From positions 1 through 37,290 of the forward strand of contig SKQL01000003.1 in assembly GCA_007119035.1 (NCBI GenBank): a stretch of DNA of 37,290 bases, given 5' to 3'. Numbering within the stretch: position 1 is the first letter of the stretch; each line of letters begins with the position of its first letter. The notes below the pieces were generated by a model. The model was given only the letters and a program-made list of their open reading frames with translations. It did no database searches and was not told the origin of the DNA. The stretch comes from Nitriliruptorales bacterium (lineage in GTDB: Bacteria; Actinomycetota; Nitriliruptoria; Euzebyales; Egibacteraceae). Position numbers and translations under genes: made by a program. Shown piece by piece: positions 9,052-13,012 of the stretch.

Positions 9052-10485
9052 CTATCCCTCCCCGAGCCGGACAGGCTCGTTGCGCACGTCTGTGAAATGA
9101 CCGTGGACCGCCGCCGCGGCGGCCATGACGGGCGACACGAGGTGGGTGCGTCCCCCCTTGCCCTGACGGCCCTCGAAGTTCCGGTTCGAGGTGGACGCGC
9201 ACCGTTCCCCCGGCTCGAGGATGTCGGGGTTCATGCCGAGGCACATCGAGCACCCGGGCTCCCGCCACTCGAACCCCGCGTCCTTGAAGACGACATCGAG
9301 GCCCTCGGCCTCAGCCTCCAGCTTCACCGGGTAGCTCCCGGGCACCACCATCGCCCGGACGCCATCGGCGACCTTGCGGTCGCGGAGCACGGCGGCGGCC
9401 GCCCGCAGGTCCTCGATCCGGGCGTTCGTGCACGAGCCGAGGAAGACGCGGTCGATCGGGATGTCGCCGATCCGCTCCCCCCCTCGGAGCCCCATGTAAT
9501 CGAGCGCACGCTCCGCCTGCTCGGGGTCCCGGGTGGCCTCCGCCTCGGGTACGGTGCCCGTGACGGGCACGCTCATCGCGGGGTTCGTGCCCCATGTGAC
9601 GGTGGGCTCGAGCGTGCTCGCGTCGAGCTCGTAGACCGCGTCGAACGTCGCGCCCTCGTCAGTGGGCAATTCCGACCACGACGCGACGGCCGCGTCCCAA
9701 TCCGCGCCCCGGGGCGCATGACGGCGCCCTTCGAGGTACGCGAAGGTCGTCTCGTCGGGGGCGATCATGCCCGCACGCGCCCCCGCCTCGATGGACATGT
9801 TGCAGATGGTCATCCGGCCTTCCATCGACAGCGAGCGGATCGTCTCGCCCCTGTACTCGAAGACGTAGCCCACACCTCCCTCGACACCGATGTCGCTGAT
9901 GACGCGCAAAATGATGTCCTTGGCGCTGCAGCCGAAGGGCAGCTCCCCCGAGACCTCGATCGCCATGGTCCGAGGCTTCGACTGCGCGAGTGTCTGGGTG
10001 GCGAGCACATGCTCGACCTCGGAGGTGCCGATCCCGAAGGCGAGGGCACCGAACGCACCGTGCGTGGCGGTGTGGCTATCGCCGCACACGATCGTCATGC
10101 CCGGCTGCGTGAGCCCCCGCTCGGGGCCGATCATGTGCACGATCCCCTGCTGGGTCGAGTTCATGTCGAACAGCTGGACGCCGAAGTGCTCGCAGTTGTC
10201 CTCGAGGGCGTCCATCTGCTTCTTCGAGAGCTCGTCGGTGATCGGCACGGACCGATCGGTGGTCGGGACGTTGTGGTCCATCGTGGCGACGGTCAGGTCG
10301 GGGCGCCGCACCGGTCGGCCCGCGAGCCTCAGGCCCTCGAACGCCTGGGGACTCGTGACCTCGTGCACGAGGTGAAAGTCGACGTACAGCAGATCGGGCT
10401 CCGCGTCCGGCCCTGACCCACCTGGTCGCACCACATGGCGATCCCAGACCTTCTCCATCATCGTCTTCGGGGTGCTCATGCTCAC
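9052..10485 (-). CDS. leuC: 3-isopropylmalate dehydratase large subunit
   Basis: The 477-aa aconitase-superfamily protein holds the [4Fe-4S] cluster of isopropylmalate isomerase. Visible family sequences are [65 protein letters not shown] and [13 protein letters not shown]; the last two hold the three cluster cysteines (C...CxxC). The start is GTG at 10485, with GGAGGGG five bases upstream; an ATG two codons later (10479) is the alternative. It begins 11 nt after the leuA stop, so leuA-leuC-leuD form one operon. Confidence 0.97.
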
Positions 10486-10496
10486 TTGATCCCCTC

Positions 10497-12104
10497 CTAC
10501 GGGGTCTCCGTCGTCGCTTGCACGCGCTGGAGGCGCACCGAGCGGTTCAGCGCGGACAGGAACGCGCGGGCGCTCGCCTCCACCACGTCAGTCGAGACTC
10601 CCCGGCCGGTGTAGCGCTGCCCAGCGACATCGACCTGGACGGTGACGTCGCCGAGCGCATCGATGCCGCCGGTCACCGCCGCGACCTTGAAGTCCGCGAG
10701 CCTTGCGTCCCGCAGCGCAGCGCCGTGCGTGGCGTCCTCGCCGACCGCGCGGCGAATCGCCCCGCAGGCCGCGTCGACCATGCCGTCGCCACCGGCCGAC
10801 TCCTCGAAGACGACTGCGTCCGCGCTCCTCCTGATCCGCACCACCGCATGGGGTCGGGCCGCGGTCCCACCCGTCACCTCGAGGTCCTCGAGCTCGAATG
10901 CCTCGTCGGCGGCAGCGGAGATCTCGTCGGCGACGATCGCCTCGAGGTCCGCGTCGGTCACCTCGACCTTCTTGTCGCTCAACTCCTTGAAGCGGTCGAA
11001 CGCGCGCTTGATCTCCTCTGCGCCCAACTCGTAGCCCATGTCCTCGAGTTGGCGCGAGAAGGCGTGACGGCCCGAGTGCTTGCCGAGCACGATCTGGCTT
11101 CCGACCATGCCGACGCTCGCCGCATCCATGATCTCGTACGTCAGCCGGTCCTGGAGCACCCCGTGCTGGTGGATGCCCGACTCGTGCGCGAACGCGTTCT
11201 TGCCGACGACAGCCTTGTTGTACTGCACGTTGTAGCCGGTCAGCGTCGACACCAGCCGTGAGGTGCGGCCGATCTCGACCGTGTCGATCTGGGTGCCGAG
11301 GCCTAGGAGATCATTGCGGGTGGCCAACGCCATCACGACCTCCTCGAGGGAGCAGTTGCCCGCGCGCTCGCCGATCCCGTTGACCGCTACCTCGATCTGA
11401 CGAGCGCCCTGACGCACCGCCTCGATCGAGTTGGCGACCGCCAGGCCGAGGTCGTTGTGGCAATGCACGCTGATCGCGACCTCGGGCCCCACCCGGCGCA
11501 CGAGGTCGCCGATCGTGGCACCGAAGTCGTACGGGATCGCGTACCCGACCGTGTCGGGGATGTTGACGGTCGTCGCACCCGCCTCGACGGCTGCCTCGAC
11601 GATCCGCTTGAGGAAGTCCTTGTCCGTACGGGTGGCGTCCTGGGGGCTGAACTCCACGTCGTCGGTGAACTCGAGCGCCTGCCGGATCCCCTCCTGCGCC
11701 TGCGCGACGATCTCGTCCTCGGACGCCCCGTGGTGCAGGACGTGGCGGTGGATGTCGCTCGTGGACAGGAAGACGTGGATGCGCGACCGTTGCGCGGACC
11801 TCATCGCGTCCGCGGCGCGCTTGACGTCGTCGGGATGACATCGGGCCAAGGACGTGATGACAGGGGGCGCGGTGGCGGAGCCCCATACCTGGGTGCCGAC
11901 CGTCTCCGCGATCCCGCGCACCGCTTCGAACTCGCCCTGCGAGGTGATCGGGAAGCCCGCCTCGATGTAGTCCGCGTTCAGCCTTGCGAGTTGCTCCGCG
12001 ATCTCGAGCTTCTCCTTCGCGTCGAGGGAGATCCCCGGCGCCTGCTCGCCGTCGCGCAGCGTCGTGTCGAAAATCCGGACGTGTGGTTGCTCGCTTGCGG
12101 TCAT
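10497..12104 (-). CDS. leuA: 2-isopropylmalate synthase
   Basis: The 535-aa enzyme makes 2-isopropylmalate from 2-oxoisovalerate and acetyl-CoA, the committed step of leucine synthesis. The N-terminal TIM barrel has [13 protein letters not shown] (residues 12-24), metal ligands in [11 protein letters not shown], and [28 protein letters not shown] lies in the linker. The C-terminal 120 residues form the LeuA regulatory dimer domain ([31 protein letters not shown]), the site of leucine feedback in characterised enzymes. The full arrangement (LeuA type 1) rules out citramalate synthase as the better call, though the two cannot be separated with certainty by eye. ATG at 12104 has the strong site AGAAGGAG, which is complementary to leucine codons of the upstream leader peptide (12196-12306). 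Confidence 0.93.
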
Positions 12105-12112
12105 GGTCGAAG

Positions 12113-12121
12113 CTCCTTCTC
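12113..12121 (-). promoter_or_regulatory. leuA Shine-Dalgarno region complementary to leader Leu codons
   Basis: On the minus strand these bases read GAGAAGGAG, ending eight bases before the leuA ATG. They are a perfect 9-nt reverse complement of CTCCTTCTC at 12213-12205, three Leu codons (CTC CTT CTC) near the end of the leader peptide. Pairing would hide the leuA ribosome site; a ribosome stalled or translating on those codons would expose it. The pairing is seen in sequence; the mechanism is inference. Confidence 0.65.
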
Positions 12122-12153
12122 AGGCTGCGTGGCCGCACCCGTGATGACGACCT

Positions 12154-12193
12154 CCGCGGGGGGCTCGGTGCGTCGGCTGGTGCCGCCCCGCGG
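12154..12193 (-). promoter_or_regulatory. Hairpin in the leuA leader RNA
   Basis: CCGCGGGG (12193-12186 on the minus strand) pairs perfectly with CCCCGCGG (12161-12154), 8 bp with a 24-nt loop. It lies wholly between the leader-peptide stop and the leuA Shine-Dalgarno, so it is nested inside the proposed Leu-codon/SD pairing and would shorten the distance between the two strands of that helix. No U-tract follows, so it is not a typical intrinsic terminator. Confidence 0.5.
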
Positions 12194-12195
12194 CG

Positions 12196-12306
12196 TCAAA
12201 GGTGGAGAAGGAGGAGGAGCCCGAGAAGGGGCGCGAGGAAGCGGGCACGCGAACTCCGGGCAGCGATGTGGCTCGCCCGGACGATGTTCGATGCACCCGT
12301 GTTCAC
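12196..12306 (-). CDS. Leucine-rich leader peptide of the leuA operon
   Basis: The 36-codon frame runs from GTG (12306) to TGA (12196-12198). The last 14 residues are FLAPLLGLLLLLHL, with nine leucines read from CTC and CTT codons, a composition that strongly implies a leucine-sensing leader rather than a functional protein. No Shine-Dalgarno is present, but the predicted transcription start (promoter 12314-12342) falls on or one base before the GTG, so the mRNA would be leaderless, which actinobacterial ribosomes accept. The frame is open upstream to 12381, but that part lies before the promoter. Three Leu codons (residues 32-34) are complementary to the leuA ribosome site. Leucine-rich leaders before leuA are known from other actinobacteria; the exact architecture here is my reading. 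Confidence 0.8.
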   Translation of the reverse strand: MNTGASNIVRASHIAARSSRARFLAPLLGLLLLLHL

Positions 12307-12313
12307 GCCCCAA

Positions 12314-12342
12314 CTTGTAGCGCCACACGACCGCGCTGTCAA
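12314..12342 (-). promoter_or_regulatory. Promoter of leuA leader and leuA-leuC-leuD
   Basis: On the minus strand a perfect -35 TTGACA (12342-12337) is followed after exactly 17 bases by TACAAG (12319-12314; four of six match TATAAT). The expected start, 6-8 bases downstream, is 12308-12306, coincident with the GTG of the leader peptide. The match is good for a high-GC genome. Confidence 0.7.
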
Positions 12343-12469: not shown

Positions 12470-13012
12470 GTGGAGATAATGGTCCGGTGCGAGCTGCCCG
12501 ATGAGCCGGGGATGCTCGCGGAGGTGGCGGGCACCATCGGCAAGGCGGGGGGCGACATCCAATCGGTCGATGTCGTGGAGCACCATGACGGTCGGGTTCT
12601 CGACGACCTGCTCATCGTCGTCGACGCGGAGCGCGGCGCGTCCATGCTCGAGCAGCTCGCGGCGATACCGAACGTCGACCTCGTGCATGCGGGCCCCTCC
12701 CGTGGGCATCCCGGGGACGCGATGACCCGGCTCGCCGTCTCCCTGGAGGCGCTGCTCACCGGCCAGGCGGAGGCCGACCTCGGCCTGACGACGCTGATCG
12801 GCGGTCAGTTACGCGCTTCGAGCGCCGAGCTGTCAGACCGCGAGGCCGCCCCTGCCGCCTCCAGCAAGACGATGGTGCTCGACGTGGACGAGCGGGTGCT
12901 CGCGCTCACCCGTGACTACCGGTTCACCGACACCGAGCGTGACCGGGCGGAAGCTCTCCTGCGGCTCAGCCTTCTCGCGACGGGGCAGCCCGCGCGGACC
13001 AGCGCGGGATAG
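12470..13012 (+). CDS. ACT domain-containing protein, function unknown
   Basis: Residues about 4-75 form an ACT domain: VRCELPDEPGMLAEVAGTI, then GGDIQSVDVVEHHDGRVLDD and LLIVVDAERGASMLEQLAAI, the usual beta-alpha-beta-beta-alpha-beta pattern that binds amino acids. The remaining about 105 residues are mostly helical and match nothing I recognise; no catalytic or DNA-binding domain is evident. The start is GTG at 12470 with GGAG five bases upstream. It is divergent from leuA and convergent with the BCKDH E2 gene (one base between the stop codons), so it sits between leucine synthesis and branched-chain breakdown. A role as a branched-chain amino acid sensor is attractive but is inference only. 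It is the only plus-strand gene between 941 and the end of the window. Confidence 0.75.
   Translation: MEIMVRCELPDEPGMLAEVAGTIGKAGGDIQSVDVVEHHDGRVLDDLLIVVDAERGASMLEQLAAIPNVDLVHAGPSRGHPGDAMTRLAVSLEALLTGQAEADLGLTTLIGGQLRASSAELSDREAAPAASSKTMVLDVDERVLALTRDYRFTDTERDRAEALLRLSLLATGQPARTSAG

Follow-up and report, generated by a model that had tools for sequence, protein, structure and literature searches.

The leuA gene in the window, the whole analysed stretch of 37,290 nucleotides from a Nitriliruptorales bacterium, is preceded by an RNA element that is accepted here, by sequence comparison, as belonging to the LEU element known from actinobacterial leuA. According to the preferred reading, to which a probability of roughly 65% is assigned, the element acts on translation: a leaderless-type Leu-rich leader is followed by a hairpin and a pseudoknot, the Leu codon run doubles as the anti-Shine-Dalgarno (anti-SD) strand of leuA, and ribosomes on the leader would control the masking of the SD. 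Leucine synthesis in the window is very probably under RNA-level feedback. The pairing of Leu codons with the SD in front of leuA has been known since 2005, and the case in the window is well supported but largely known.

Anatomy of the leuA Upstream Region

The features of the region, all on the minus strand, are as follows:

12337-12342 (-): -35 hexamer TTGACA, read from the sequence; TTGAC(A/G/T) stands at the equivalent place in relatives
12314-12319 (-): -10 hexamer TACAAG, 17-nt spacer to the -35, 7 nt before the GTG; recurs in relatives
12196-12306 (-): leader peptide ORF VNTGASNIVRASHIAARSSRARFLAPLLGLLLLLHL, 36 codons and a TGA stop, GTG start at 12306-12304
12242-12299 (-): P0, an extended hairpin within the leader codons that precede the Leu run, from the computed fold
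12205-12213 (-): CTCCTTCTC, Leu codons forming the anti-SD arm of the base stem, from sequence, fold, and swap test
12186-12193 (-): 5' arm of hairpin P1, CCGCGGGG, from the fold, alignment A1, and pair counts
12167-12172 (-): pseudoknot arm in the P1 loop, CGCACC, read from the sequence and swap-tested
12154-12161 (-): 3' arm of P1, CCCCGCGG, followed by a nearly invariant AG, from alignment A1 and pair counts
12134-12139 (-): pseudoknot arm downstream of P1, GGTGCG, read from the sequence and swap-tested
12113-12121 (-): leuA SD region GAGAAGGAG, the 3' arm of the base stem, from sequence and fold
10497-12104 (-): leuA, 2-isopropylmalate synthase of the TIGR00973/PRK00915 type, ATG at 12104
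9052-10485 (-): leuC, isopropylmalate isomerase large subunit, the next gene of the operon, assigned by sequence resemblance

The initial annotation had described a TTGACA-N17-TACAAG promoter, a GTG, and a 36-codon frame with nine Leu among its last 13 codons, and all of these are present on the minus strand. TACAAG matches the -10 consensus at 4 of 6 positions; a rule-based promoter scan did not list the leuA-leader promoter, because it accepts a -10 only if its sixth base is T. Judging by the promoter spacing in the window and in relatives, the leader GTG is predicted to lie at or next to the 5' end of the transcript. The perfect complement described earlier was also found: CTCCTTCTC (12213-12205) is the exact 9-nt complement of the leuA SD GAGAAGGAG (12121-12113), and nested between the two is the 8-bp hairpin P1, in which 12193-12186 pairs with 12161-12154. 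The minimum-energy fold of the transcript holds the 9-bp Leu-codon/SD stem with P1 nested inside it (z -2.5 against dinucleotide shuffles). Neither the pseudoknot nor the structured 5' half of the leader was part of that earlier description. A scan of the window region detected no intrinsic terminator between the leader and leuA, as the initial annotation had stated of a U-tailed one, and an Rfam search of the window at gathering scores gave no match. Adjoining leuA and transcribed divergently from it is a gene for an ACT-domain protein (12470-13012, plus strand).

Identity and Conservation of the Element

The covariance model R1, built from alignment A1, which comprises the window's class only, matches upstream regions of leuA of the Streptomyces/Mycobacterium type (L149, L148, L147, L146, and L142, with E values of 6e-4 to 0.04). 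One of these, L149, encodes the peptide MRFGLLLLSCRGEGL, identical to LeuL1 of Streptomyces lividans. Matches were also obtained in two genomes of another actinobacterial family (L190 and L207), where the element precedes a TIGR00973-type leuA and the leader reads into P1. There was no match at 80 negative-control leuA loci, taken from a LeuA scan of genome contigs and almost all from other phyla; one of them, L044, is titled Acidimicrobiia and is thus actinobacterial. Eight further weak matches outside leuA (L262, L265, L267, L270, L271, L272, L275, and L276) have neither a leader nor a leucine gene behind them and were dismissed as chance. The core GCCGCG...CGCGGAG, found by the class-only model, is common to the window's class and the LEU elements.

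According to PMC1262725 (Seliverstov et al. 2005), the LEU element is defined by a base stem in which the run of Leu codons pairs with the leuA SD, and it has a pseudoknot as well. The leader LeuL1 of S. lividans is leaderless and lacks a Rho-independent terminator (PMC8079986). Membership in the LEU element is therefore accepted, and the suggestion that a leaderless leader with sensing codons serving as the anti-SD might be novel is not: the pairing is described in the former paper and a leaderless, terminator-less leader in the latter.

The upstream regions of leuA were drawn from relatives of the window's genome. The leader, its stop codon, the P1 hairpin, and the SD are present in 39 of the 40 readable upstream regions of TIGR00973-type leuA in the class, the sole exception being L223, which is without the element. 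These 39 consist of 30 loci read at first, the window's own included, and nine picked by leuA position, and they share one order: Leu-rich leader, stop, GCCGC...GCGG hairpin, G-rich element, SD, and leuA. Searched for as an exact pattern, the core is present in 29 of 66 genomes of the class, a single time in each, and its reversed control is absent from all of them. The homologous leaders in relatives have 27-41 codons, and across 41 leaders of the class the last 13 codons include 4-10 Leu. No T-run follows P1 in front of leuA in the class. Where the upstream sequence of a relative reaches far enough, the best-scoring promoter-type hexamer pair lies 6-10 nt ahead of a start codon, as expected if the transcript is leaderless or almost so; this spacing, whose conservation was raised as a check in the initial annotation, is kept across the class. 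The final leader codon (region 12196-12201 in the window) is CTT in 38 of the 41 leaders, CTT making up only 7.7% of the Leu codons in the window. The strings CTTTGAYGCCGC and GCGGAG are nearly invariant in alignment A1.

Base Pairing and Chance Complementarity

Taken alone, the 9-nt match is unremarkable and becomes convincing only via its conservation. When the leader peptide was synonymously recoded with the window's own codon use, derived from the window ORFs only, a complement to the SD of at least 9 nt arose in 9% of the recodings, and in 28% when all Leu codons were CTY. The claim of Leu-codon/SD pairing must therefore rest on comparison. Upstream of the other 22 genes in the window the match to the leader does not exceed 6 nt.

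The comparison was made with one genome per genus in five draws, the SDs being swapped between genera. The Leu runs pair with their own SDs at -18.6 to -19.2 kcal/mol versus -17.4 to -17.8 kcal/mol for the swapped pairs (p 0.003-0.02), which is the covariation proposed as a check, with an effect of only about 1.5 kcal/mol. The complementarity is not lost in close relatives. Swap tests within the two main clades are weaker (p 0.016-0.14). The Leu run also pairs better with the leuA SD than with the leuC SD of the same genomes (n = 8, p 0.012), and a control with the pheS SD gave a mixed result, the longest match being better with the leuA SD (p 0.003) and the energy difference not significant (p 0.23). 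Compensated stems are visible in L016 (CTCCTCATTC/GAATGAGGAG) and L029 (TGCTCCT/AGGAGCA), and the pairing is weak in L014 and L017.

The inner structures were assessed likewise. P1 is paired in 98.9% of the cells, with one position C-G in 22 rows and G-C in 18; its covariation was unmatched by shuffles, and one slid register comes near. The pairing of the P1 loop with the downstream pseudoknot arm, CGCACC/GGTGCG in the window, gave p 0.001-0.006 in the swap test. P0 is more stable than expected from synonymous recoding, with a z of -2.8 in the window and a mean z of -1.2 over 41 leaders. Base stem, hairpin, and pseudoknot are thus all supported by sequence comparison.

Proposed Mechanism and Alternatives

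We infer an action on translation, for which ribosome-controlled SD masking, proposed already in the initial annotation, is the best model. With leucyl-tRNA plentiful, the ribosome would clear the leader, the Leu run would close on the SD around the core of P1 and the pseudoknot, and translation of leuA would be low. With leucyl-tRNA short, ribosomes would sit on the Leu codons and cover the anti-SD strand; the SD would then be open and LeuA made. This model is consistent with the conserved pairing and spacing and with a simulation of 41 leaders, in which a ribosome footprint was constrained along the leader and the pairing was recomputed. With free RNA or ribosomes upstream the mean openness of the SD was 0.21; once the A site reached the last eight codons it was 0.39-0.47. 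For the window the value is 0.01 at the outset and about 0.4 with the ribosome at codons -8 to -4, dropping again near the stop. Agreement of the simulation with translational control is partly built in, because the ribosome covers the anti-SD strand. Averaged over the leaders, the SD is opened to much the same degree by a ribosome at the stop codon as by a Leu-stalled one, and therefore the switch would rely on fast release. In L018, L025, and L233 the simulated SD is largely free without a ribosome. No demonstration of a LEU-type regulatory mechanism in any organism was found in the literature; the Leu-codon mutants of the Streptomyces coelicolor leuA leader, as summarised in PMC1262725, did not fit classical attenuation. 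As far as that summary goes, they argue against classical attenuation and leave room for SD masking or a binding protein.

Such a protein, or another factor, could bind the pseudoknot of the LEU element and control the SD, the leader peptide being secondary. This explanation, which is considered rather unlikely here, is favoured in PMC1262725 on the strength of the S. coelicolor mutants and phylogenetic co-occurrence, the protein proposed in 2005 being a DEAD-box helicase, the orthologue of ML1624. The near invariance of CTTTGAYGCCGC and GCGGAG and the use of CTT as last codon in 38 of 41 leaders despite its rarity also speak for it. However, no readable relative bearing the element has lost the leader ORF, the Leu run, or the leaderless spacing, and a mere protein site needs no translated Leu-rich frame with 4-10 Leu in its last 13 codons. 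Slightly less probable still is transcription attenuation, in which translation of the leader would set termination, intrinsic or Rho-dependent, versus read-through before leuA. Elsewhere in actinobacteria Leu-rich leuA leaders are indeed followed by a hairpin and a T-run, the anatomy of a transcription attenuator (L150, L151, L152, L164, L189, L191, L199, and L215, from other actinobacterial groups), and a Rho-dependent version is compatible with the sequence. The window region, however, has no terminator-like site, the class has no T-run after P1, and leuL1 of S. lividans is likewise without a terminator (PMC8079986). The last alternative is that the Leu-codon/SD match is a coincidence of CTC-rich codons meeting a GA-rich SD, the leader acting otherwise or not at all. 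The frequency of matches of at least 9 nt among the recodings (9%) and the small swap effect would allow it, but native pairs beat both the swapped pairs and the leuC SD control, and stems are compensated in L016 and L029, making this the least probable of the explanations. Ribosome-controlled SD masking by the LEU element thus remains the preferred reading.

Wider Occurrence

LEU-type elements with a Leu leader were also observed upstream of leuC transcription units, the gene identities being read from the sequence: at L268 (G024:C21) and L261, from two genomes of the window's order, where a short ORF separates the element from leuC, and in another actinobacterium (L266). Genome G024 has one element at leuA and one at leuC. 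Two genomes within the window's class (G026, locus L264, and G037, locus L269) carry a TIGR00970-like leuA behind a LEU element of the Streptomyces style, its leader running into P1; gene and element were possibly acquired together. In one genus (L274/L277, L278, L279, and L280) a short frame with Phe codons at its end precedes a GCCGCGGG...CCCGCGG hairpin upstream of pheST, and the L277 leader, MDSSSAPPRRRMFSVRF followed by a stop, has an 8-nt complement to the pheS SD. A Phe version before pheS was rejected as a general feature, the hairpin occurring only in four genomes of that genus (L277-L280). Among open-licence papers no report of actinobacterial leuC or pheST versions was found. In another actinobacterial family (L179 and L183) the Leu codons CTTCTCCTC of the leuA leader and the SD GAGGAGAAG are perfectly complementary over 9 nt, and the local hairpin between them is a different one.

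Given the terminator-type leuA leaders of other groups, the same sensing codons seem to be wired to both outputs. It is a tentative and still doubtful idea that the LEU element is not peculiar to leuA but a translational switch that can be transferred, in which the same hairpin scaffold and leaderless leader would stand before two leuA subfamilies, leuC units, and, in one genus and with Phe codons, pheST, the sensor codons being exchanged. Since 2005 the anatomy of the element has pointed to ribosome-controlled SD masking, yet the behaviour of the early mutants was at odds with attenuation. From the class-wide set it can be seen which parts are under constraint; the set also brings a further leuA subfamily and leuC within the range of the element and supplies natural compensated stems.

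Comparison with Known Systems

In classical attenuators, such as trp and ilvB1 of Mycobacterium tuberculosis (PMC13236596), stalling on sensor codons is likewise the proposed signal, but these switch an intrinsic terminator, and none was found at leuA of the window. The mycobacterial Cys attenuators (Canestrari et al. 2020, via PMC9094748; candidates in PMC4633059) resemble the window, with its predicted leaderless leader, in having a leaderless ORF with a run of the sensed codons that controls a downstream operon; they sense cysteine, and sensing codons serving as an anti-SD are not reported in these two sources. In leuL1 of S. lividans (PMC8079986) a leaderless leader with a Leu run stands before leuA and, as in the window, there is no Rho-independent terminator. 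It has 15 codons with the Leu run in the middle of the peptide and a 5' end mapped by RNA-seq, whereas the 5' end in the window is a predicted one.

The LEU element itself (PMC1262725) shares with the window the leader ORF with a Leu run, the base stem of Leu codons and SD, the inner pseudoknot, and the lack of a terminator; the loop-to-downstream pairing in the window corresponds to the published pseudoknot. In the window's class, unlike in the element as presented there, the leader has 27-41 codons and a structured 5' half. Moreover, the stop codon lies just before P1 and the leader ends in the Leu run, whereas leaders of the Streptomyces/Mycobacterium type read through the 5' arm of P1. The leuA subfamilies differ as well, TIGR00973 being found in the window's class and TIGR00970 in genomes of the Streptomyces/Mycobacterium type.
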